A DNA stretch of 44,710 nt from Sistotremastrum niveocremeum HHB9708 (taxonomy: Eukaryota; Basidiomycota; Agaricomycetes; Sistotremastrales; Sistotremastraceae): positions 5,966-50,675 of the forward strand of contig KV419472.1 of assembly GCA_001630475.1 (NCBI GenBank), read 5' to 3'. The first letter of the stretch is position 1. Every line of letters begins with the position of its first letter. The notes beneath the pieces were generated by a model. That model saw only the letters and a list, made by a program, of their open reading frames with translations. It was not told the DNA's origin and did not search any database. The translations under genes and the position numbers were made by a program. Of the stretch, positions 10,168 to 38,319 are shown piece after piece.

Positions 10168-11827
10168 TCAATATTGCACGAGATACAAGCTGCCCACACG
10201 TGGCTTTTCATCTTCGAAAATGAACAACACAATTCGACCTTCAGAAGGATCGACGCGGCGCATGAAGTACATCTGACCACCTGTCAGTTCATGAGGAAGC
10301 GCGATCCTGAACCTCGAACGTCTTGTGCAAGAAGCGTTAAAGCAGGATATATCTAGGAGATTCTCTGTTTTTCCAGCAGATCCGAAATGAGCAGAGTGCT
10401 CTCTGGTAAAATGAGCGTAAAATGCATCATCAGGGTCACCTTTAAGAATGAAAGGAAATGAACGAAAAGGATCCTCCGTTCGTGTAGGGTCAAAGCGAAC
10501 AGAGACCATATTTTCTGTATCAAAAGGGGAGGCCATTTCTCCGTACCTGTCGACGACGAACTCATCGATCGGGACGTATTGAGAGAGAGTAGACTCATTG
10601 CTCCCGTCGAGGAGTGATGGGACAAGGTGTCCGGGGATGAGATAACTGTGCGTGAGCTTCAGCTTTTCTTGAGACCACAAGAGTTCTCGTGATTTCATGA
10701 GAAGATTGCTCCGGACCAGCGGAGTTATTCTTGGGATATCGGCCAAGAGAATTGCGCGTCGATTGCGGACAAGTCCTGGGGAGTTCTGAAGAACGACATG
10801 AATGACGAGTTTCTTCAATTCCGTGTGGAGTTGAAGACGTGTAATAGTGGGAACCTTAAAGAAAAGTCAGTGTGATGATAGCGTGAGCTGAGTAAGAACG
10901 GACTAGTCCCTCTACGCCAGTCTCATCTGCAAAGGATGGCAAATCGACAGAGAACTCGGTCCCAAAGCCTTGCTGGTAATCGATAATTCCAAACCGATTC
11001 AAGCTCATTGTTTCTGTGGTATCTAGTGTGGTGTCTAGTATGACTAGAAGAGGTCCGTGTAAGGCGACAACACTGAATGAATTCGGCAGAGTGTAGTTTT
11101 GGACGCGAGTGATATGCGGATCAGCTTCTGGAGACTCTTCAGAAGGGAACGAAAGGTTAAGAATGAATGTTTCGGACGGAGAGTTCTCGCGGCTTTAGAG
11201 GAGTGTATCAGAAAGATGTCACAGTAAAGTTAAGGAACTCGATCCACCTGGGCCAGTCATTGATTGTGAAAACGAGGATCGCTTTTCCAAATCCCACGCT
11301 TTCAAACTTTATATCTTGTATCTTTCCTCTTGCGACGAAGATGGGCTCAGAATCCAGTCCTAGATCGCCACGCCTGATATTCCGAATCCACAGTCGTTCG
11401 CAATGACTGGCGATCACCCAATCTCCGCTAGGCAAGAATGCGGTCAAATGTTTCCCGGGTTCCGAGATTTTGGAATATCGGATTGGAGTCGCGATGGGAG
11501 CTTCAAGGCGACTTCGGATGTCTACTGCACGCATTGCGAGCCGAAGGAATAAGGAGTTTGGGATAGTCGATAATGTTTCCCCGACGGGAATTGGAAGATC
11601 GTGGATATCTGGAGAGTTCATCCAGATTGAGCGGTTATTTTTGAGAATAGTATAGAGTCTACTCGATACCTAATTTGCATATAGGTCTTCCGTTCAAACC
11701 AGTCCCAGGCGAGTGAATCCGAATGACTCACTTGTGCAATCGAGACCAATGTTGACAGACACTCGTCACGAAGGATTTCGAGCACGAGTTCAGGAGCAAT
11801 GGTATGAATATTGGGATTGACCCGCAT
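10168..11827 (-). CDS. F-box-like protein F1 (497 aa)
   Basis: Four exons on the minus strand: 11827-11732, 11669-11248, 11192-10904 and 10854-10168 (1,494 nt). The introns are 62, 55 and 49 nt with phases 0, 2 and 0. The ATG at 11827 starts MRVNPNIHTIAPELVLEILR; residues ~8-45 fit an F-box (P/S-E-L-V-L-E-I-L, then TLVSIAQ and RLYTILK...SIW). F-box proteins usually link a substrate to an SCF ubiquitin ligase through Skp1; that role is inferred. The rest of the protein is shared with F2-F5, including CFNASCTRRSR and a C terminus ending YLVQY, where the others end in MQY. The third intron has an unusual GTCCGT donor, but its position and phase match the paralogs. Exon sizes 96/422/289/687 are identical to F2. 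It is transcribed away from F2. Confidence 0.88.
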
Positions 11828-12112: not shown

Positions 12113-12121
12113 CTTTCGTGC
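12113..12121. repeat. Left 9-bp target-site duplication of the MULE
   Basis: CTTTCGTGC, repeated exactly at 16407-16415 on the other side of the element. Nine bases is the classic target-duplication length of Mutator-like elements. Confidence 0.9.
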
Positions 12122-12130
12122 GAGGCACGG

Positions 12131-12150
12131 CAACTTTAGTACTATAGTCA
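12131..12150. repeat. Left terminal inverted repeat core of the MULE
   Basis: CAACTTTAGTACTATAGTCA; it matches the reverse complement of 16378-16397 at all 20 positions. Confidence 0.92.
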
Positions 12151-12473
12151 CATGCGTGGGTATGGGAAAGACCCTTATCGTGCCAAATGCAGTAGGACCC
12201 TGCGCGTTCGTTCCTTAAGCTTGGTAAGCCTTGTAACCGTTTGTCTCAGCCGTAGCCGTCGTCGTGCAATATACCACCGGCGCCATCGTCATCCCAGCTC
12301 ATCCAGTGCTCCTGAATACTCTCGTTATGCCCCTGGATCATAGAGAGATCTTGTTTCGTGCCACAACACGCCACAAATAGCAACTAGAATATGCCCGCCT
12401 CGCTAATAAAATTTTCTCTGTCTCTCACCTCTACTCTTTGAATACCGGTTACACTCCCAAAAATTAGGGCGAA

Positions 12474-15400
12474 ATGCTCTCGAATACTCAGGAATTAATC
12501 CTCGCATCCAGTCATGATCTACTCGCAGCGTATATTTTATACCTAGGTACCTCCAACACTCCTTATTCTTGCCGACAAAATTTTCATACATTCCTTTCAG
12601 ATGTGCCCGAGTGCTTAGACCTCGAAATGCCATTAGATAATCCTCTCAAATGGGTTGATGAGGAGACATTTGGTGGTTTCTTGAATCTAGTATGGAACCA
12701 GGAACAAGCTGCGGGACCAAAGTGCGTCTCGATGTTTATCACGCTGTTAATTAGCGCTCATGACGATAACATTATAGCGTACCAATTCTACCACCGGCAC
12801 GTCCAGCCACTCCAAACATGTCCAATACATCACATCCCATTATCGACCTCTGTTCTCCCGCGATCCCGGATGCATCCGACAACCATGCGTTCGCGGCTGC
12901 CTCATTCGCCCAAGCAATTGACATTTCATCCGATGAATCCGACGACGATTCTGCAGTCAAAGGAAAGGGGAAGAAAGTCGATGATAAGCCTGGATATATT
13001 AATGCAAAAATATATGTTACATTGAAAGAGGATGTTGAAGAGGTGATACACCTCAATCGTGTACCTCAGCGTTGGCCCGTTCCGACAAAGTCAACTGCTT
13101 ACGTAATTGATATCGATCTTGACGGACGGAAACCAACAAAGGGAGGAATAGCCATGAAACCTGATGCTTTCATCAAAAGCGAGGTTCGTAGTTCTCTGTT
13201 TTGAGTAACTTACTCTGACATCAACAAAAGGATCCGGATTCATGGGGAGGTGGTACCAATGGTTCTGATAGTGATCCCCGAAATGTCCTCATTCTCGACA
13301 ACTTACCGTGTCGACGTTCGCAACACAACTGTCAAGGAGCCGACATTTGCGAATATTTTGATTCGGATTTAATTCAGAATTATGAACGCACCAGCAACGA
13401 CGATCTCAGTACTGTGCGAAATATATTTCACCATCATTTGACAGCCAACGAGAGGGATGCCGCAACAATATTGGGCCAGACAGCCTCGTAAGAGATATAT
13501 TCTTCAATTTATGATCCACCTATTAATGCTGAACATAAGATTTTTCCGAATAACAAGAGCAAAATCGTGCCCATGTTCCAAAGATGCACTGATTGTGCTC
13601 AAGATTCGGGCTAATGTATGCTTTCGGTGATTCTCGAAAACATACTGGCTAACTAATATGACCTCTATCTAGGGGCCTGACCTGAACGGAAAGCGCATGC
13701 ATATTGGCTGTTCACGCGACAAGGGTCCCAGTGCTGTTGCACATTATCATACTCTAATTCCGAAAGAAATCGACGAAAATATACTGTCGGAACTGTGGCA
13801 TGACGAAGTGGTTTCTGGAGACGAGTGGAGGGATTATACTGAGCCTTGTGCAACGCTTCTACACCCTCGCCACGGCCGTCAAAAGAAATGCAGTAAGTTT
13901 TGGCTCTTGTCACTTTCACTTCGCTTATTCACATTTTGGCTGCCAGAGCACATTCATTTCCATGAAGGACGATTAGTTATAGGGGACCTGGTTAATCGAA
14001 GATGTCCGGCCTCCCGTGTCATGTATACACCTATCGATCCGACGTTTAAAAAGTGTGTAGTTATATTTCGGGGCAAACACAACCATCCTCCGTTCCCAAA
14101 CGAGAAGGTTACATTCGACGCTCTCGAAGACCTCAGAAAATGTGTTGATTTGTTTGGTGAATGTGGTGCTACCGGAGGGAAGGTGAATGCAGGTATAATT
14201 CATGGTTTTAATCATTTGCAAGATGGATGCTAACCACAATCTTTCCGACAATGAAGCCTCATCAACAATTGCAGCCCTAGGTCAGCCTCTCAACGTCAAG
14301 CATGTTTCACTGCGAAGCAATCGGAAGATACAGACAGAAGTACGAAAGCTCAAACAAAATAACTCCCCAGTCGGGGTTCAATGGGAAGGTACCTACAATT
14401 TATTCAGTGGTCGGACAAACAATACTAACGAACTTGATTCCAGGAGTAGTACATTCTTATCAACAGGAATTGGGCCTCCCTGCGTCCGAGCGGTACATCC
14501 GCCATCTCTCGATGGATGGAGCTCGGAAGCTCCTTGTCACAGCAAACGCTGATCTCGCTCGATTGGTTCATCAGGTTAAGTTCATATGTTGTGACTATAC
14601 ATTCAAAAGGCTGCGCAGTGATCTGAATGAGTGGGAAGTCACACTCATGAATGAACGAACACACGAACGTGAGTCTATTCTCAATTTCTTGAGATCCGTT
14701 GGCGTGGTACCGGTGTCTGACATCTCATCAAATTTCCATAGGTGTCACTATCTCTCGCATATATTGTAATCAAGCAACTACGGAGGCCTTTAAACGGGTG
14801 TGGGAGGAGTTTTTTGCTGCCATCGAGAATGCGACGGGACAGAAATTGCTCATGCTCCCGTTTCATGGCGAAGGAAAGCTACGTGCCATCATATGCGATG
14901 CCGAGCCAGCTCAAGCAAAGGGGTTGGGTCTTGTGCTAGCACGACTCAATGATCCACAAATCAGCGGAATCAATGAGACAGATCCCGATATCCTACTAAC
15001 GTATATATTCAAGGTATGTGTGCAACACTACGATCGGTGAGTCATAATTTCGTTCTACAAATCCAGTTGATAAATCTTCTTGTATTGAAGGGGTCTCCTG
15101 AAGCTCGCCGCCGGCGGCAGGTCTTTGGTAGATTATTTGAAGACCTTTCGATCTCTCGAACACCCTGGGGATTTCCAAGCATTTGCGAAGTTCTGTCATG
15201 AAAGCCCTCTGGTGGCTGTAAGAGGTACGTTCTATCATTGATATAGCATGTGTTCCGGATCATCATATTATTTCGCAGACTGGTACAATAATAAGACAAT
15301 GTATCCGTGGTACCTACCAGCACTAAACCGAAATCTATCGCGGATGACCGCAGAGGCATGGATGAGCACCCCCGACAGCACCAATCTCGTAGAATCCGCA

Positions 15401-16142
15401 CATCCAGCAGCTAACCAAGCCACAGGCACCGGCCTCGGACTTCTTGATGCAATCAAATCGTAAGATGTTTGGTATATATCAGCATCTGATCCTTGACTGA
15501 CATTGGCATAGGGCTCGGAAATATGACTTCGAGGTAGCAGCCTCTATTGCTGCTGCTGAGCAGTCGATGATTTTGCGCAACACCTTGAACGACACTGCTT
15601 CGCGATTGAGTCGGAGGGTTGGACGTGCGGCGACTCGAGCGAACAAGGACGAAGCTCGACGAGAAATCATTAATCGGATTGAAGAGACCAACAAAGCATT
15701 GGAAGAATCTACGCAGATTTCAAGAGCCGAGGTCGAAAAGCGAAAGGAAATACAAGAAAAACAGAAAGGGCTTCGTACGTTGTACAAGTCAATCCCCTCT
15801 TCGCAGCCCATAGTTCCGCGCTCGAGCCAACGGTCCGTCAGGCCACATCTCCAGATCCCCGTCCCTCATGCTCAAAATCGCACCCCTATCCCTCAACCCA
15901 CTTATCCGGCACCTCACCCACCCTCGTTCTGGCCCTCAGCGTACCCATTCACCGATTTCCACCACCACGCCTACACCGTCGCCGCCAACTCCTCAGAGGA
16001 TGTCGTGCCGAATGTTCCCGAATTTGTACAGGGATCGTCGAGGGGAATCGGAGGGAATGGAGGGAATGGAGGGGATGCTGCTGGTGCTGGTGTGAATCCG
16101 TACACCCCTCCTAACTACGGTCACGGTTATCACTATAATTAA
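12474..16142 (+). CDS. MULE-type DDE transposase (1,016 aa, 12 exons)
   Basis: Exons: 12474-12721, 12778-13183, 13231-13487, 13540-13615, 13673-13892, 13947-14192, 14257-14388, 14444-14668, 14742-15036, 15091-15224, 15279-15459, 15512-16142. Eleven introns of 47-73 nt all keep phase, and the 3,051-nt frame has no stop. It cuts and pastes the host element by binding its TIRs. Visible parts: an acidic linker DISSDESDDDS (~aa 150); a WRKY/FLYWCH-like zinc site with Cys at ~421 and ~439 and FRGKHNHP at ~445; catalytic Asp in CCDYTFKR (~577); Asp in CDAEPAQAKG (~656); Glu in NLVESAHPAANQ (~784). These fit a MULE DDE core. The C terminus has a basic coiled coil, then a Pro/Gly/Asn-rich tail. Related long hypothetical proteins are widespread in basidiomycetes. 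The start at 12474 is the first ATG in frame; a later ATG at 12818 is possible. Confidence 0.92.
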
Positions 16143-16377
16143 GATCAGTACTTACCACGGACTCATTCAAAATAGCTTCTAGGTACTCACCTTTAGTACT
16201 ATCTCGCTCTTAATAGAAAACGGTTATGACACCGAATATGAATAGCTCATCGGTTCGGTGCTGGCGACGGTTGAGGATGCGGGTACACGGTCGAGTTGGT
16301 CGGACTGGACGATGGCGATGTACCTTGCATTGGTCAGCGTACCCTACTCGGCACACATGCCGTTACTCTCACGGACA

Positions 16378-16397
16378 TGACTATAGTACTAAAGTTG
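16378..16397. repeat. Right terminal inverted repeat core of the MULE
   Basis: TGACTATAGTACTAAAGTTG, the exact reverse complement of the left core; 9 bases separate it from the element end at 16406. Confidence 0.92.
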
Positions 16398-16406
16398 TAT
16401 GGACTC

Positions 16407-16415
16407 CTTTCGTGC
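16407..16415. repeat. Right 9-bp target-site duplication of the MULE
   Basis: CTTTCGTGC, identical to 12113-12121. The F2 start codon follows 45 bp downstream. Confidence 0.9.
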
Positions 16416-16460: not shown

Positions 16461-18115
16461 ATGCGAGTTCAGCCAAACCTTCATAACATTGCTTCAGAAC
16501 TTATACTCGAAATACTCCACGAAGCTTCTCTAGCTACTCTAGTCGGCGTCGCACAGGTGAGCTCAAATTCATTCCTCCGAGACACATATCAACCGACTCC
16601 GATCAACGAAAGACATCAACGAGACTCTACAATATGCTCAAGGAAACACGTTCGATCTGGATGAGCGCTCCCGATATACATGATCTCCCCCTACCCACCG
16701 CTGAAACCCTCTCCACAATCCCAACCTCTTCATTACTCCGTCTCGCAATTCGTGCCGTCGATATCCGACGAAATCTCGAAGCTCCTTTAGCCATCCCCAT
16801 CAGAAACTTCAAACTCTCTGAATCCGGGATAAATTTAACGGCTTTCTTGCCCGGCGGAGATTGGATCCTCATCACTCACTGCGAAAGACTATGGATCCAC
16901 AATCTCGCGCATGGAGCCCCTAATTTAGACTCCGAGCCTATATTTGTCTCCACCGGAAAGATTCAACATATAAATTTCGAAAGTCTAGGATTTGGAAAAG
17001 CAATCCTCGTCTTGACAATCGACGACTATCCCACGTAAGTCCCGTTTCTTCCACTACGACACATCCTTCTGATAAACTCCTCTCAAGCCACGAAAACTCA
17101 CCCTGTCAAATATCCATTCTCAACCTTCGTTTTCCTGTCGAGAGCTCCCTAGAGGCCGATCCGTACATCACACGCATACAAAATTATGCTCTCCCAGATT
17201 CACACAACGTCGTCGCCATGCACGGGCCTCTCTTAGTCATCTCAGACACCACACACGGCACCACTGGAGGAGAAAGCAACAACACCTTCGGAATCATCGA
17301 TTACCAGCAAGGTTTCGGCACCATCTTCTCCATCGACTTGCCCAACTTCACAGACGTTCTAGATGGGAATGAATTGGTTAGTCTTGTTCCACCTCAATCT
17401 ACACTATCATCCGTTGAAATTCGTTCAGATTCCCACTATTGCGCGTATTCGATTCCACCCCATCCTGAAGAAACTCATCGTTCACGTCCATCTCCAAGAG
17501 ACGGAAGAATTTCTTCACGACCGTCGTGCAATTCTCTTGTTCGACATTCCAACCATAGCTCCATTATACCGGACCAATACTCTCCTTAAGTCGCGAGAAC
17601 TCCTATGGTCCGAAGGAAGACTCATCCCCACCCACACCTATCTAATCCCGGATCGCCTTTCCGAATCAATTTTAAGCTCTCGGGACGAAGCCACGGTTTC
17701 TCGATACATTCCGATCGATGAGTTCGTACTCGACAGACATCCAGAGAGACGCTCAGCATCCGAAACCCGAAACTTGATATCCATTCGCTTCGACCCCGCC
17801 AGTCCAGACGAATCTTTTGTCTCATTCTCCTTCTTCCTGGAAGATGACCCCAATGACGAATTCTATACCCATTTTAGCAGGGATCATTCTCCCTATCTTG
17901 GATTTCCAGGACAAGTTCAAGATCTCCAAGTGATATCATGCTTCAACGCTTCATGCACGAGGCGGTCGAGGATTAGGATCCCCCTTCCCACAGAACTGAC
18001 GCGCGGTCAGTTGTACATGATTCATCGTTTCAATCCGACCGACGGTCGACTTGTTCTCCAAATCTACGAGGATGAGGAATGTCACACTGGCAGATTGTAC
18101 ATGATGCAGTACTGA
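16461..18115 (+). CDS. F-box-like protein F2 (497 aa)
   Basis: Exons 16461-16556, 16613-17034, 17088-17376 and 17429-18115; introns of 56, 53 and 52 nt at the same places and phases as F1, and exon sizes identical to F1. The F-box-like N terminus reads MRVQPNLHNIASELILEILH, then LATLVGVAQ and RLYNMLKETRSIWM. The middle carries FGIIDYQQGFGTIFSIDLP and the last exon CFNASCTRRSRIRIPLP. The protein ends GRLYMMQY. An SCF substrate-adaptor role is inferred from the F-box only; the C-terminal part, presumably the target-binding half, matches no domain I can name. The reading frame is intact, but the MULE has moved its upstream promoter (with the GCTTACGTGA motif at 12044) more than 4 kb away, so expression may be changed or lost. 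Confidence 0.9.
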
Positions 18116-19455: not shown

Positions 19456-21095
19456 ATGACATCCAGGTCTCTTCAGACTAACACTCGAATCACGCCGAGT
19501 CTTCATACGATTGCCTCTGAATTAGTGCTTGAGATACTTCGTGAAGCTTCTTTGGCTACTCTGGTCTCCATCGCTCAGGTGAGTTTTCTCTAATTCATCG
19601 CCACGAGACGCGTCTGAACAGAAGCAACCTATGAATTTAAGACATCCGCTAGACTATACAACATGCTCAGAACAATTCGTTCGATATGGATGAACTCCCC
19701 CGACATCCACGATCTCCCAATCTCCGCTGGCGAAACCTTAACCACCATTCCAACCTCCTCATTCCTACGGCTTGCATTGCGAGCCGTGATCATCCGAACT
19801 CACCTTGAAACTCCCTTTGCTACGCCAGTCCAAATACTCAAGATTTTCGAACTCGGAGTCGAAATGAGCGTGTTGTTGCCTGGCGGAAACTGGGTGATCG
19901 TCACTCACGGCGAGAAGATGTGGATCCACAATATCGAACATGGAAGTCCCGAAATAGATTCCGAACCTATCTTTCTTGCCTCTGGAAAGATTGAGCATGT
20001 AAAGTTTGAAAGTGTTGGATCTGGCAAAGCTACCCTCGTCCTGATGATCGCTGAATCGACAAAGTGAGTCGTCACCCCGTCATGTAAGATCTGCGTACTC
20101 ATGAACTAGAAGCCTTGGACTCTCGCAATCTCAAGCATTGATATTCGATCTTCATTTTGCACCCGAGGGATCCTCTGAAGATCGTCCTCACATCGCATCC
20201 GTTGTTTCCTACCATATTCCAAACCTGTTCACCATTGTTTCCATTCGCGGACATTTTATCATGACGGATGACCCTTCAGATTCAGGCGACCGCTTGGTGA
20301 TAATCGATTACCAGCGAGGCTCTGGGACCAACTTTGACATCAGGCTAGCCAACTTTGCAGACGAGATTGAGACAGAAGAACTGGTTTGTTTCAATCCCAT
20401 CCCCCATGATCTTTGAACAACTAAAAGCTAAACAGGGCATGACTATCTATGACATCAGCTTCATCGACACCTTGCAAAAACTTGTTATTCTTGCCTATCT
20501 TCGCACTGCCGATCGCGAGGTAATTCTTTTCGCAGATGTTCCAGCAATTGAGTCAGTGGGTACGCCGAAATCAGGCGAGATTTCATGGTCTCAATCAACA
20601 CTGCATCCGACACATCAGTATCTGGTTCCTGACTTTCAATCCACAAAACTGTTAATCTCTCACGACGAGGCTCTTCTCTCTCGACACATTCCACTTCACG
20701 AATACACGGCTCCCAGTACCGGTGTTTATAGCAAAATCTTCCATGGGCGAGATATCATATCAGTCCGCTTAGCACCGAAGGGCGCCGACGGAGAGATGCT
20801 ATTCTTCCGTTTTCGTTACGAGCAGCATCCTGATGATTTATATTACACCTCTTTCAAAAGGGATCATTCCCCAGAGTTCGAACTTACCCCATCCGTGCAC
20901 TCTCGGCAGGGAATATCCTGCTTTAACGCTTCATGCACGAGGCTTTCGAGCTTACGAATCTCGATCCCTGAAGAATTACTGCTCGGCCGGCACTACATGA
21001 TTCAAACGGTCAATCCAAATGAAGGCCGGATCGTTTTACTTATATACGACGATGAACAGGAGAATATGGGCCGGTTGTATATCATGCAGTATTGA
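19456..21095 (+). CDS. F-box-like protein F3 (492 aa)
   Basis: Exons 19456-19578, 19642-20063, 20110-20383 and 20436-21095; introns of 63, 46 and 52 nt with phases 0, 2 and 0, as in F1 and F2. The first exon has a 9-residue longer N terminus (MTSRSLQTNTRITPSLHTIA), followed by the F-box-like ELVLEILREASLATLVSIAQ and RLYNMLRTIRSIWM. It shares VIIDYQRGSGTNFDIRLANF and CFNASCTRLSSLRISIPEEL with its relatives and ends GRLYIMQY. No frame damage is seen. It is closest to F1 and F2, but its third and fourth exons are shorter by 15 and 27 nt, so it has diverged more. The likely role is an SCF substrate adaptor (inferred from the F-box). Confidence 0.89.
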
Positions 21096-29486: not shown

Positions 29487-31101
29487 ATGTCTCAACCCAA
29501 TTTCCATACCCTAGCTACCGAAATCTTGCTCAAAATACTTGATGGAGTGGAATTGAACGTTCTTGTTGCGATAGCGCAGGCACGAAAATTGACCTTTCGA
29601 CCGCTATTCGAAGGAATACTGATTATCCTCCTCTTAGACTTCAAGTAGGCTATATAACTTGACCAAGACTTATCGCAGTGTCTGGATGGCAGCTGAAGAT
29701 GCTCTCGCGCTCCCTCTTCCAGAACAGGAGACGTTGCAAACTATCGCCGTGGATTCTATTCTCCAGCTCGCAATGCGAGCAGTCGATCTTCGGCGTCGAT
29801 TTCTGAATCCTGAAATCAAGCCCCTAAGGATAAGCAAAGAAGTTCCAAGACCTTGGCATGTCTTCAACGAAAAATGGGTCATCAAGACCGATGACGACGC
29901 GGCTATGATATGGATCGTACCCACCGATTCTGCCGACTCGTATAGAAGCTTCGACCCACTTTTCAAGGGCAAAGGCAGATTCGGCTGTTTTTCCATAGAA
30001 GAATTGGATGACCGCAAATTGGCAGTCATCTTTACCGTGGTTCCTCATCAAGCGTGAGTAGTGTTTGTATTCAAGTATGATATTTTGACGCATCTCAATC
30101 GACAGCTCAATTTCGGACGTCTTCCACCTTGACGTGTTGCTGATGACAATTCCGGCTCATCTTCTCGAGAATCAAGTTGCTCCCGTCTTCGAGTCCAAAC
30201 GCTACCTACTGCCCTATCGTGCGCGTCAACTCTTCTTCCAGGGCTCACGCCTTTTCATTAAAACCTGGAATTACCCTCCATATCACTATCTGATGCTCGA
30301 CTACCAGAGAAATCTCGGGGTCCAGTTGATCGTCCGAACACCGGATGGCGAACCAGCCTTTTTAGAATCCATTGTCAGTAATTCCCCCACATTTTGTTGC
30401 ATTTCACTAACCCGAAGCAGATGGGGCATCGTAAAGAATTGGTGTTTCATCCTGACCTCTCGAAAATCGTCATTGAAATCGAAATCTCTCGCATGCGAAC
30501 GGTTCTCCTACTAGCAGACGTCCCCACGATAGAAGGCCAGTCCTGTAGCGACCTTTCAGAGTTCTCTTGGAAGCCTCAATCCTGGGATACTACGCACATG
30601 TTCGATCTCCAAGACATTTCCGGTCATAACTATAACGACGAGGCCATCATGCAGAGCTATGCGGACACTTTCATTGCCGTTGACTCCTTCATATCTCCCC
30701 GCTATACCCCTGTTCATGAATTTGTATTTCGGTCGCGTCTAGATGAAGATGGTCGGCACCGGCACCGGCAATTCGTATCAATTTGTCTTGATACCGAAAC
30801 CAACAAACTGGTTGCGCTAGCCTTCCCCCCCGAGAATCCCGCCGATCATCCTACAGCTTACTGGACCATAGACGGACCGGTTGAAGACTTCGTTGAACCG
30901 GACCCTAAAAAGGAGCAATGGATGATCATATGTCCCGATTCATCAGGACGCCAGCTTTCAAAATTCAGGATTACTTTCCCGCCTGAACATTCGAAAGAAA
31001 AATCCTACTTGGTCTTGAAAGTCGACATGAGAAAGGGAGAGCTCTTGATGTATGAAAGAATTGATTATACGGCATATCAAGGATGGGTTATGCAGTATTA
31101 G
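29487..31101 (+). CDS. F-box-like protein F4 (485 aa)
   Basis: Exons 29487-29579, 29638-30053, 30106-30373 and 30421-31101 (1,458 nt); introns of 58, 52 and 47 nt in the same phases as F1-F3. The N terminus MSQPNFHTLATEILLKILDG, then LNVLVAIAQ and RLYNLTKTYRSVWM, is F-box-like. Shared later blocks include HYLMLDYQRNLGVQLIVRTP, and the end is GWVMQY. F4 and F5 form a second subfamily: the CFNASCTRR block of F1-F3 is replaced by a MIICPDSSGR block. Intron 1 begins GCACGA instead of GT; the F5 copy has GTACGG at the same place. So F4 either uses a GC-AG intron or splices poorly, in which case the 29580-29637 stretch would disrupt the frame. Confidence 0.85.
29580..29637 (+). other. F4 intron 1 with GC donor
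   Basis: It starts GCACGA and ends CTCTTAG. Alignment with F5 intron 1 (GTACGG...TTTTCAG) shows that a single T-to-C change made the GC donor. Confidence 0.65.
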
Positions 31102-32813: not shown

Positions 32814-34394
32814 TGCTCAAAATACTCGATGGAGTTGAATTGAACGTTTTAGTTGCGATAGCGCAGGTACGGAAATCGACCTTCCAATCGCTATTCGAGG
32901 GGGTACTGACTATTCTCATCTTTTCAGACTTCGAGTCGACTATATAACTTGACAAAGACTCACCGAAGTGTCTGGATGGGAGCCGAAGACCATCTGGAGC
33001 TCCCGCTCCAAGAACCGGAGACACTGTCGACGATTCCTGTGGAGTCTATTCTTCGGCTCGCAATGCGAGCAGTCGATCTTCAGCGTCGATTTCTAGATCC
33101 CGAAGTCAAACCACTGAGAATAAGCAAGGTAGACAGAAAACCTTGGTATATCTTCAACGAAAAATGGATCGTCGAGACGAAGGAAGGTGCTGCACAAGGT
33201 GCTTCATCGCTGTGGATTCTCCCCGCTGAATCGGCCGATTCGTATAAAGACTTTGAGCCAGTCATTTGCTTCGACGGCAGATTCGCATTTCGCACCGTTA
33301 AAGAACTGGATGACCGAAACTTGGTAGTTATATACACGGTGGTACCTTATCAACAGTGAGTGCGAATTGAAAGTGTTAGCCTCTTTGATTATCTGACGCA
33401 TAGGCGTTGAAAGCTCCGTTTCGGACGTCTTCTATCTCAAAGTGTTGTTAATCGAAATACCTCCTTCTAATGACGGGAACAACATGGCTTTCGTCACCGA
33501 ATCAAAAAGCTATCTACTGCCAGCCCAAGTGAAAAGTCTTGATTTAGTAGGCTCTAATCTATTCATCCGATGCTGGGGCGACCCTCCGTTTCACTACCTC
33601 ATGCTCGACTATGAGAGAAATATTGGAGCCCAGTTAGTAATCCGGACACCCGACGGCGAACCCGCCATGTTTGATTCGAGGGTCGGTTCTGTTCTCACTT
33701 CTGTTTCAAGTTTACTAAAACGGAGCAGATGGGCTACCGCAAAGCCTTTCAGTTTCATCCTGGCCTTGATAAGATTGTTCTTGTCCTGGAGGTCTCCCTG
33801 AGCCGTTCTGTTCTCCTGCTAGCAGACATGCCTACGCTGGATGCTCGCCCATCGAACGAGATTTCGGATTTCTACTGGAAGCCCGGATACTGGGACGCCA
33901 CACACATCATTGACTGGCCACATGTTCATCTCCTTTATCGTAAGGGTATTTTGCACAAGTTTGCGGACACATTGATCGCCGTGGACTCTGCTATATCTCC
34001 CCGCTATATCCCGGTGCATGAGTTCGTGTTTTTCGCGCCTCATCACGTTCACCGGCAATTCGTATCGTTCTGCTTCGACACTGAAGCAAACAAACTGGTC
34101 GCGTTGGCCTTCCCTCCAGAGGATCCCGCCGATGCTCCTACAAAATACTGGACCAGACGCGGACCGCTTGACCAATTCGTTGACCCGCAATTTGGGAAAG
34201 AGTGCTGGATGATCATATGTCCCGACTCCTCTGGAAGAAAGCTTTTGAAACTCAGGATCACTTTCCCGCCTGGACATTCCGAAGATAAATCTTACTTGGT
34301 CGCGCGAGTCGACATGAGGAAGGGAGAGCTCATGATGGACGAGGAGGAAGACGATCGTATGGGGGAATACCAAAGATGGATCATGCAGTATTAA

Positions 34395-36445: not shown

Positions 36446-38319
36446 TCACTTACGTAATGCTCGAATCTCAGCGCCAATATCAAGCGCTCGTTTTCCTTCG
36501 AGCCACATCATCGCATCTTCATCCAAGATCCCAAATCAGACATCCATCCCTCAAACATCGGAGAAGATGCAAGTTGCATACCTTCATAGGATCGAGGAAC
36601 GACGATCCTGCTCAAAGGCTCCCCATCATCCGTACACCATGTAAAACTGAAATGATTAGTCGTAATCTCTGATCCTGTAGCCACATCCACCACGTTCGCT
36701 TTCACACCAACATTCTGAGACCACACATCTTCAGATATCCAGCGACAGAAAGAGATGGAGACGTACGACGAGAGTAGGATATTCGGGCGTCGATTCGGTA
36801 TGCGCAACGTGCGACGTAAGTCGTAGTATTGACCCAATCGGAACGGGTCTTTTGAAAGATATCCCATCAAGGGAAAGGAATCGGACAGGGTGGCGCGTAA
36901 AGAGCGTGGCGGTCGTGAATCCAAGCTCATATGCCAAGCGCATCAGATATCCTATACCAAAGATTCATCAACCGAACCAGTCAAAAGCTTCCGTATGACG
37001 TACCTCCAAAGATTTTTTGATGAACGCTAAAGCACATGAGTTTCTTGAGTGAGCTGCATTTCTAAAGACTGACTTTCTTTCTTGTGGGAACATCAGAAGA
37101 CTATTCTCCAGCTTCGTTTCGGACAGCCATACTCGTTTCGATTTCTTCTCGGCCGATCCCTCTTGTCCGTACGTAAGGAACAGATCGTGTAGAGCTTGGG
37201 CTTCCTCGGATGTCGGCGGGACCTTCGAAAGCGCGCGTAAAGAATGCGACTGCTTCCGAGACTTCTGATCTAAGGGCAATCTGAGTATTCGGATGACTGC
37301 AGAGGATCATTGTACATGCCTTCTCCGATGGCGAAAAGCTGTTTCTCCTCAGGTGTCGAAAGTATCAAGGGGTTGACTGGTCGGGCCTTATGAGTATGCG
37401 CATCCCGACATACCATCGAAAATCGCCCTGTAATCGGATAAGTCAAATTCCTCTCGATCCACGAGAACCATACCCAGCATGACCGTCTTCCCATCTGCCG
37501 CCGAATCACCCTCAGGATCTAGACTCTCAATCTTCACCGCAACCTCCATACTGCTCCGTCCCGTCGAAATAACCTGTCCACTAATCCTCAAATCCCTAAC
37601 CGGACTACTCAAACTCTCCAGCATATCCAATCGGTCCACCGCAGCAGTAACAACATAGAACCCCCTCTCACCCAAATCGCCCAATCTATTCACATCCGGA
37701 CCAAGGAGATGCTTATAAGCGCTTGAGCCTGCGAGCGAATCCAGATGTTCCATAAGCTTGCCGGTGCGGATTCCGCCGGATGCGTTGACGTATTTCTCGA
37801 GGAGCTCGGGAGAGGAGTGGAAGGGGAGGATTATTTGGGAGTAGGATTCGTGCATGTGACGAGGTTTGAGTGCATTGATGTTTGTCGGTGAAGGAGGTCG
37901 GACCTGGTGGGGTTCGGTGTTCGTCGATGTCGCTATGCTTTCGGCCCAAAGCTCAGGAATTCTGACGGGTACTGATCTATATCTTTCTGTAAGATATCGA
38001 AAAGAAAGCGAAGAGGTCGATTTGACGCACGATCTATAAGCTGGATTCGATTGTTCCCCTGCGATTTGCGATAAGTTGACGCTCGGACCACACAAGAAAA
38101 TTCTAGGCACGTACGAACCACAGACAAGAGGCGGTCAATAGCATCGACGAATCTCGTCTCCTGAGCCGAATTAATATCCTGAGTCGACTTCGCACTGCTA
38201 TCGGCGTGAAGCAATCGCGCCTTCGTCGTCGACGTCATCTTCAGAAAACAACCCTGCGGTCGACTTGACCGGGCGGACTTGGTTGAAGCCAGACATGTCC
38301 TGAGAGACCTGGATAGCAT
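36446..38319 (-). CDS. Mitochondrial acyl-CoA thioesterase, ACOT9 type (477 aa)
   Basis: It hydrolyses fatty acyl-CoA to free acid and CoA, probably in the mitochondrial matrix. Eight exons: 38319-38115, 37986-37474, 37427-37320, 37269-37074, 37026-37004, 36951-36767, 36714-36582 and 36516-36446 (1,434 nt, all phases fit). The Arg/Ser-rich start MLSRSLRTCLASTKSARSSR looks like a mitochondrial presequence. Family landmarks: HMHESYSQIILPF (~109), GGIRTGKLMEHLDSLAGS (~133), FYVVTAAVDRLDML (~165), GRFSMVCRDAHTHKARPVNP (~240) and SKVPPTSEEAQALH (~290) for the first hotdog half; FPQERNVHQKIFGGYLMRLA (~335), VRFLSLDGISFKRP (~372) and VGVKANVVDVATG (~412) for the second. It ends IGAEIRALRK. Exon 5 is only 23 nt. 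The intron at 37319-37270 has a GC donor (GCATGT). The ATG choice rests on the presequence; the frame stays open further upstream. Confidence 0.93.
37270..37319 (-). other. GC-AG intron in the thioesterase gene
   Basis: On the minus strand it reads AAG|GCATGT ... CCCTTAG|AT. The conserved protein on both sides (LFAIGEG and DQKSRKQ, then SKVPPTSEE) and the exact phase support this intron despite the GC donor. Confidence 0.75.

Follow-up and report, generated by a model that had tools for sequence, protein, structure and literature searches.

A probable MULE-type DNA transposon with a divergent transposase, and a shorter element with the same ends, in Sistotremastrum niveocremeum

The element and its ends

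In the basidiomycete Sistotremastrum niveocremeum HHB9708 (GCA_001630475.1), a transposable element, here called A, is flanked by a pair of head-to-head genes with a mutual match of 72% over ~480 bp. The window, that is, the whole stretch of DNA analyzed, spans 44,710 bp of contig KV419472.1 (positions 5,966 to 50,675), and positions are those of the window unless a contig of the assembly is named. The element and its borders are as follows.

12113..12121, no strand: left 9-bp target site duplication of A, CTTTCGTGC
12122..16406, plus strand: transposable element A, 4285 bp (G000:C79:18087-22371 in the assembly), whose end sequences also bound element B
12122..12158, plus strand: left TIR of A, GAGGCACGG followed by the 20-bp core CAACTTTAGTACTATAGTCA (12131-12150) and an imperfect inner part
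16188..16202, plus strand: additional copy of the TIR core inside the element, the third in all, with 14 of 15 bases; it follows the stop codon and precedes the right TIR
16370..16406, minus strand: right TIR of A, read inwards GAGTCCATA followed by the same core (16378-16397)
16407..16415, no strand: right 9-bp target site duplication of A, CTTTCGTGC

The geometry claimed for this element in an earlier note, with identical 9-bp duplications and inverted cores matching at 20 of 20 bases 9 bp from the ends, was reproduced. On both strands of the window, CTTTCGTGC occurs in two exact copies only, which are the two flanks of A, and each core starts 9 bases from its end. For ends fixed beforehand, a 9-bp match has a probability of 4^-9, or about 4e-6 with uniform bases; since the ends of A are fixed by element B (see below), its duplication exceeds what chance would give. 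The TIRs had also been called symmetric, which is true over the 20-bp core and not outside it: the outermost 9 bases are alike at 4 of 9 positions between left and right, the arms match at 89% over 28 nt, and the matching fades about 40 bp inwards.

Two overlapping 8-bp palindromes, TAGTACTA and ACTATAGT, are contained in the core. When up to one mismatch is allowed, its 15-base version has 3 matches in the window and none in each of 100 shuffles. The internal copy runs in the same direction as the left TIR, and it is possible that it is an extra site for the transposase or a leftover of an older end.

The transposase gene

A single spliced gene occupies most of the element, and the residues discussed below map to the following positions.

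12474..16142, plus strand: predicted transposase gene of A, 1016 aa, 12 exons, from frame, introns and splice signals
12474-12721, 12778-13183, 13231-13487, 13540-13615, 13673-13892, 13947-14192, plus strand: exons 1 to 6
14257-14388, 14444-14668, 14742-15036, 15091-15224, 15279-15459, 15512-16142, plus strand: exons 7 to 12
14003..14086, plus strand: putative zinc site C422-x16-C439-x7-H447-x-H449
14593..14595, plus strand: codon of the putative catalytic D579 (FICCDYTF)
14897..14899, plus strand: codon of the putative catalytic D656 (AIICDAEP), 77 residues past the first D
15017..15028, plus strand: C696-x2-H699, the sole CxxH of the transposase
15392..15394, plus strand: codon of the putative catalytic E785 (TNLVESAH), 129 residues past the second D and 11 past W774

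The frame of 12 exons and 1016 codons claimed earlier was recovered with a single stop, at its end. As the model was assembled manually, guided by splice signals and open frames and with those numbers already known, it is a check rather than a blind prediction, and its start codon is a choice. All 11 introns are bounded by GT...AG (partly by construction) and measure 47 to 73 nt, with GTRAG donors in 5 and a CTRAY-type branch-point motif in 6 of the 11. Their GC content is 0.375, against 0.57, 0.43 and 0.46 at codon positions 1, 2 and 3.

The order of the residues D579, D656, C696-x2-H699, W774 and E785 is that of MULE transposases, as judged by eye on a single sequence in which W748 and W757 are alternative candidates for the tryptophan. 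The residues of the putative zinc site and DDE triad claimed earlier are present in this order. The zinc-site segment had no match in the segment scan of Pfam. We take the C422...H449 spacing to be of the WRKY/GCM1/FLYWCH kind. To look for the RNase H-like fold of MULE catalytic domains, exon 9 was folded alone from its single sequence; a strand-helix-strand-helix-helix arrangement was obtained, with D656 just past the second strand; the confidence of this fold is low (mean pLDDT 48).

A further element sharing the ends of A

The assembly searched has 34.7 Mb in 111 contigs; the counts obtained from it are lower bounds, and repeats may be missing from it. With the spliced transposase as query and E up to 0.001, all 8 matches fell on contig C79, at its own locus. 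Searches with the DNA and with the core pattern revealed a second element, B, at C25:84702-86690 (1989 bp). B starts with GAGGCACGGCAA and finishes with TTGTATGGACTC, like A, and is flanked on both sides by a perfect 9-bp duplication of its own, CGAATATAG. The search for other copies that had been proposed in the earlier note was thus productive for the ends, with one further element, and not for the transposase.

The similarity between A and B is limited to about 75 bp per end (82% over 74 bp at the left, 75% over 77 bp at the right). GAGGCACGG is retained at the left end of both elements and TATGGACTC at their right end, and their interiors have no significant similarity. The TIR of B, with 41 nt and 85%, is longer and more regular than that of A. 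With up to 3 mismatches, the core pattern has 5 matches in the assembly, of which 3 are exact (both ends of A and the right end of B). The other two, with 3 mismatches, are the left end of B and C47:81895; matches of this kind mean nothing by themselves, because a control with the reversed pattern gives 4. The left end of B is supported by its longer match to A in the DNA search (E = 2.3e-11), and C47:81895 was treated as a chance match rather than a further element end on account of the same control.

B shares both of the distinct end sequences with A and has a separate 9-bp duplication, which confirms the boundaries of A independently and shows that this pair of ends has served in two insertions or more, so that the family has moved. 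The divergence between A and B indicates that neither is a recent copy of the other, and a single transposase copy gives no direct sign of spread. For the interior of B, no other match was obtained in the genome (E up to 10), and the idea of a Pack-MULE carrying captured sequence of the present host is for that reason unsupported.

A possible decayed relative around B

In a low-threshold search of the genome with the protein of A (E up to 10), five of 6 matches were at A itself, and the sixth was at C25:86949-87185 (minus strand, E = 0.18), some 260 bp outside B. A second stretch, at C25:84286-84357 (DSTNVVQ...GTGMGLV), lies beyond the opposite end of B, collinear with the first on the minus strand; it resembles the region of E785, with Q in place of the E of A. 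The first stretch scored 77 and the largest of 200 shuffled queries 47, and the second scored 59 against a shuffle maximum of 46 or 49 (200 shuffles, two query lengths), in a test region of 5 kb that was picked because of the weak E = 0.18 match. The best sum of same-strand scores was 136 at C25 versus 89 in 22 overlapping control windows of the genome, and the second stretch alone reached 59 versus a control-window maximum of 51.

Other searches were less favorable. Among the 22 matches of a default tblastn up to E = 50, the first stretch was absent and the second had E = 0.034 for 20 kb, and a more sensitive tblastn for this possible relic returned no lines. In an exon-by-exon test at C25 with 100 shuffles, only exon 11 was above all shuffles; exon 8 alone was reached by 6 of 100 and each of the other 10 exons by at least 14 of 100. 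The evidence is mixed, and on these sequence comparisons we lean towards the view that B is inserted into the decayed remains of a sequence distantly related to the transposase of A.

Mobility of the element

The two flanks of A were searched separately for the empty site that the earlier note had proposed to look for, and neither revealed one. The left flank matched itself only, and the right one matched itself and, inverted and with 72% identity over ~480 bp, a sequence on the left side of A, which is the paralogous gene. The recent movement suggested for A was not borne out: one transposase copy was found, no empty site was seen with either flank, and the symmetry of the TIRs is confined to the core. 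The perfect duplications and the open frame are compatible with recent movement and give no date. It had also been stated that everything needed for activity is present. This is supported for the structure, in that the cut-and-paste element looks complete and its transposase gene is open, and was not borne out for activity itself; we find it doubtful that A is mobile at present.

The single transposase copy with its open frame, the failure of both flanks to reveal an empty site and the raggedness of the TIRs outside the core would also suit an immobile remnant, with fossil ends and a transposase kept open by host use, that is, domesticated. We regard this as unlikely, since the core and the duplication of A are still exact, its putative catalytic residues are kept, and, as B demonstrates, the ends have served for more than one insertion.

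Assignment to a superfamily

We consider instead that A probably works like a MULE, as an autonomous cut-and-paste DNA transposon with a DDE transposase, an assignment that rests on the ends, the duplication length and the motif order, with no profile match. According to the accessible part of PMC6446971, MULEs generate duplications of 8-11 bp and have TIRs of 14-500 bp. The duplications match at 9 of 9 bases both at A and at B, and TIRs are present in the two elements, with a core of 20/20 and 28-nt arms of 89% in A and 41 nt of 85% in B. The earlier assignment to MULEs is supported by the duplications, the TIRs, the GAG...CTC ends and the D-D-CxxH-W-E order seen by eye, and not by any profile or protein match.

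The domain PF10551 has 4 loci above the cut-off in the genome and 1 below it, none of them at A. The ones above the cut-off are ordinary MULE transposases:

C17:7911-8177, PF10551 segment
C6:636078-636344, PF10551 segment
C27:137-409, PF10551 segment
C100:2327-2650, PF10551 segment

The segments at C17 and C6 are nearly identical. Compared with the C100 segment, the transposase of A gave a best BLASTP E of 0.11 over 20 residues, which is not significant, and with a profile of the four in-genome MULE sequences, three rows of which are fragments, the hhalign probability was 0.4%. The transposase of A thus matches neither PF10551 nor a MULE protein, in comparisons whose sensitivity is low, because a single sequence without relatives was used.

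The whole transposase matched 0 families of Pfam up to E = 10 (the HMMER filters drop most matches above ~0.1), and its segments had only weak matches below the cut-off, to DUF687, MG280, DUF1664 and Rrn6_K-rich (E from 0.12 to 0.74), none of which are transposases. There was no match in NCBIfam for the 211-aa catalytic stretch. Among solved structures, 9 sequences matched up to E = 1, none named transposase; the best of them, a focal adhesion kinase/paxillin chimera, matched the C-terminal tail (E = 0.026). No relative of the transposase was found by tblastn of viral contigs and genome contigs.

This absence of a MULE profile match could also mean that A is a cut-and-paste element that makes 9-bp duplications but belongs to a different DDE superfamily, be it hAT, KDZ/Zisupton or one not yet described, and the CxxH and W residues are common to MULE and hAT transposases (PMC5225508, accessible part). 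We judge this quite improbable. The insertions of A and B have 9 bp, whereas the lengths in the accessible part of PMC12730594 are 7 bp for Kyakuja, 8 bp for both Zisupton and a Dileera family, and in most cases 8 bp for hAT; duplications of 7-8 bp are expected for KDZ as a whole, and 5-7 bp are found in some hAT elements. In addition, the whole-protein Pfam scan named no family, hence none of these. That A is an artefact of chance or assembly, an unrelated gene between coincidental repeats, is extremely improbable even for an element known from assembled sequence rather than reads, given that B has the same ends with another perfect duplication and that none of 100 shuffled versions of the window contained a match to the core. 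Under the MULE-type reading, A is likely a new, divergent family.

Proposed mechanism

The single spliced gene of A would encode the 1016-aa DDE transposase, whose Cys/His-rich N-terminal half may bind the ends of the element by recognizing the 20-bp core with its palindromes. Cutting would occur at the GAG...CTC ends, and the gap left by a 9-bp staggered insertion would be filled in, producing the 9-bp duplication, an outcome seen twice, in A and in B. The unlike left and right ends of both elements presumably matter for function. B may be a non-autonomous partner mobilized in trans, either by A itself or by a relative that has been lost.

Comparison with known elements

Some MULEs have no TIRs. 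As in MULEs generally (PMC6446971, accessible part), A has a 9-bp duplication, TIRs within the known range, a putative DDE transposase and a possible zinc motif, and B resembles non-autonomous MULE partners with unrelated interiors. A departs from them in that PF10551 is blind to it, the outer 9 bp differ between its ends and its TIR is near the short end of the range. By its description in the same source, the Hop group of fungal MULEs is similar to A in its fungal hosts and C/H-type motifs; one mixed sub-group that includes Basidiomycota has TIRs of 30-220 bp, and the Ascomycete-only sub-groups have TIRs of 22-99 bp.

Muta1 from Aedes aegypti is an active MULE with the residues D214, D283, H307, W401 and E419; it encodes 504 aa in two exons, is present in eight copies that are virtually identical, along with over 300 derivatives, and is active in yeast (PMC5225508, accessible part). 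A shares with it the D-D-H-W-E order and a palindromic motif in the ends, and the duplications of Muta1 have 8-9 bp. The spacing from first to second D is 77 residues in A versus 69 in Muta1, from second D to E 129 versus 136 and from W to E 11 versus 18, while the distance from second D to H differs more clearly (43 versus 24). Unlike Muta1, A has 1016 aa in twelve exons and is represented in the assembly searched by one copy and one partner.

In Marasmius oreades, a mushroom-forming fungus, putative non-autonomous MULEs are widespread, and their autonomous partners were sought with pfam10551 (PMC8290104, accessible part). These are MULE-type insertions, as is A on our reading, and A would escape a search of that kind, since pfam10551 does not find its transposase. 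As a tentative proposal, A may represent a fungal MULE-type lineage unseen by current MULE profiles and with functionally distinct ends, and such lineages may be the missing autonomous partners of orphan non-autonomous MULEs in that fungus.

Three end strings were not found in the literature searched (Repbase and most subscription papers were outside the search), and among the literature matches listed no title or opening of an abstract describes this family. Unnamed proteins resembling the transposase of A, with a CP...HNHP stretch, are presumably common in Agaricomycetes. If the assignment is right, autonomous elements escape the mining of fungal genomes with the standard MULE profile, and some short insertions with 9-bp duplications are left without an assigned source. 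A and B form a clean pair, with unlike interiors and distinct left and right termini retained. A is otherwise an ordinary single-copy transposon.

The genes around the insertion

MULEs are said to insert preferentially in or near genes (PMC6446971, accessible part). By eye, the start codons of the genes next to A are at 11827 (minus strand), 294 bp from the element, and at 16461 (plus strand), 54 bp from it. In Pfam, the 67-aa start of these neighbors matched 0 families and a 183-aa stretch had only a match below the cut-off, to fn3_4.

Long open frames at 10168-10866 (minus strand) and at 17363-18115, 20349-21095, 30382-31101 and 33675-34394 (plus strand) appear by eye to be paralogues of one family, and A lies within this cluster. 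The four frames of the plus strand had no Pfam match up to E = 1. Another open frame in the window, at 37388-38134 (minus strand), has a weak match below the cut-off to a 4HBT thioesterase (E = 0.022).
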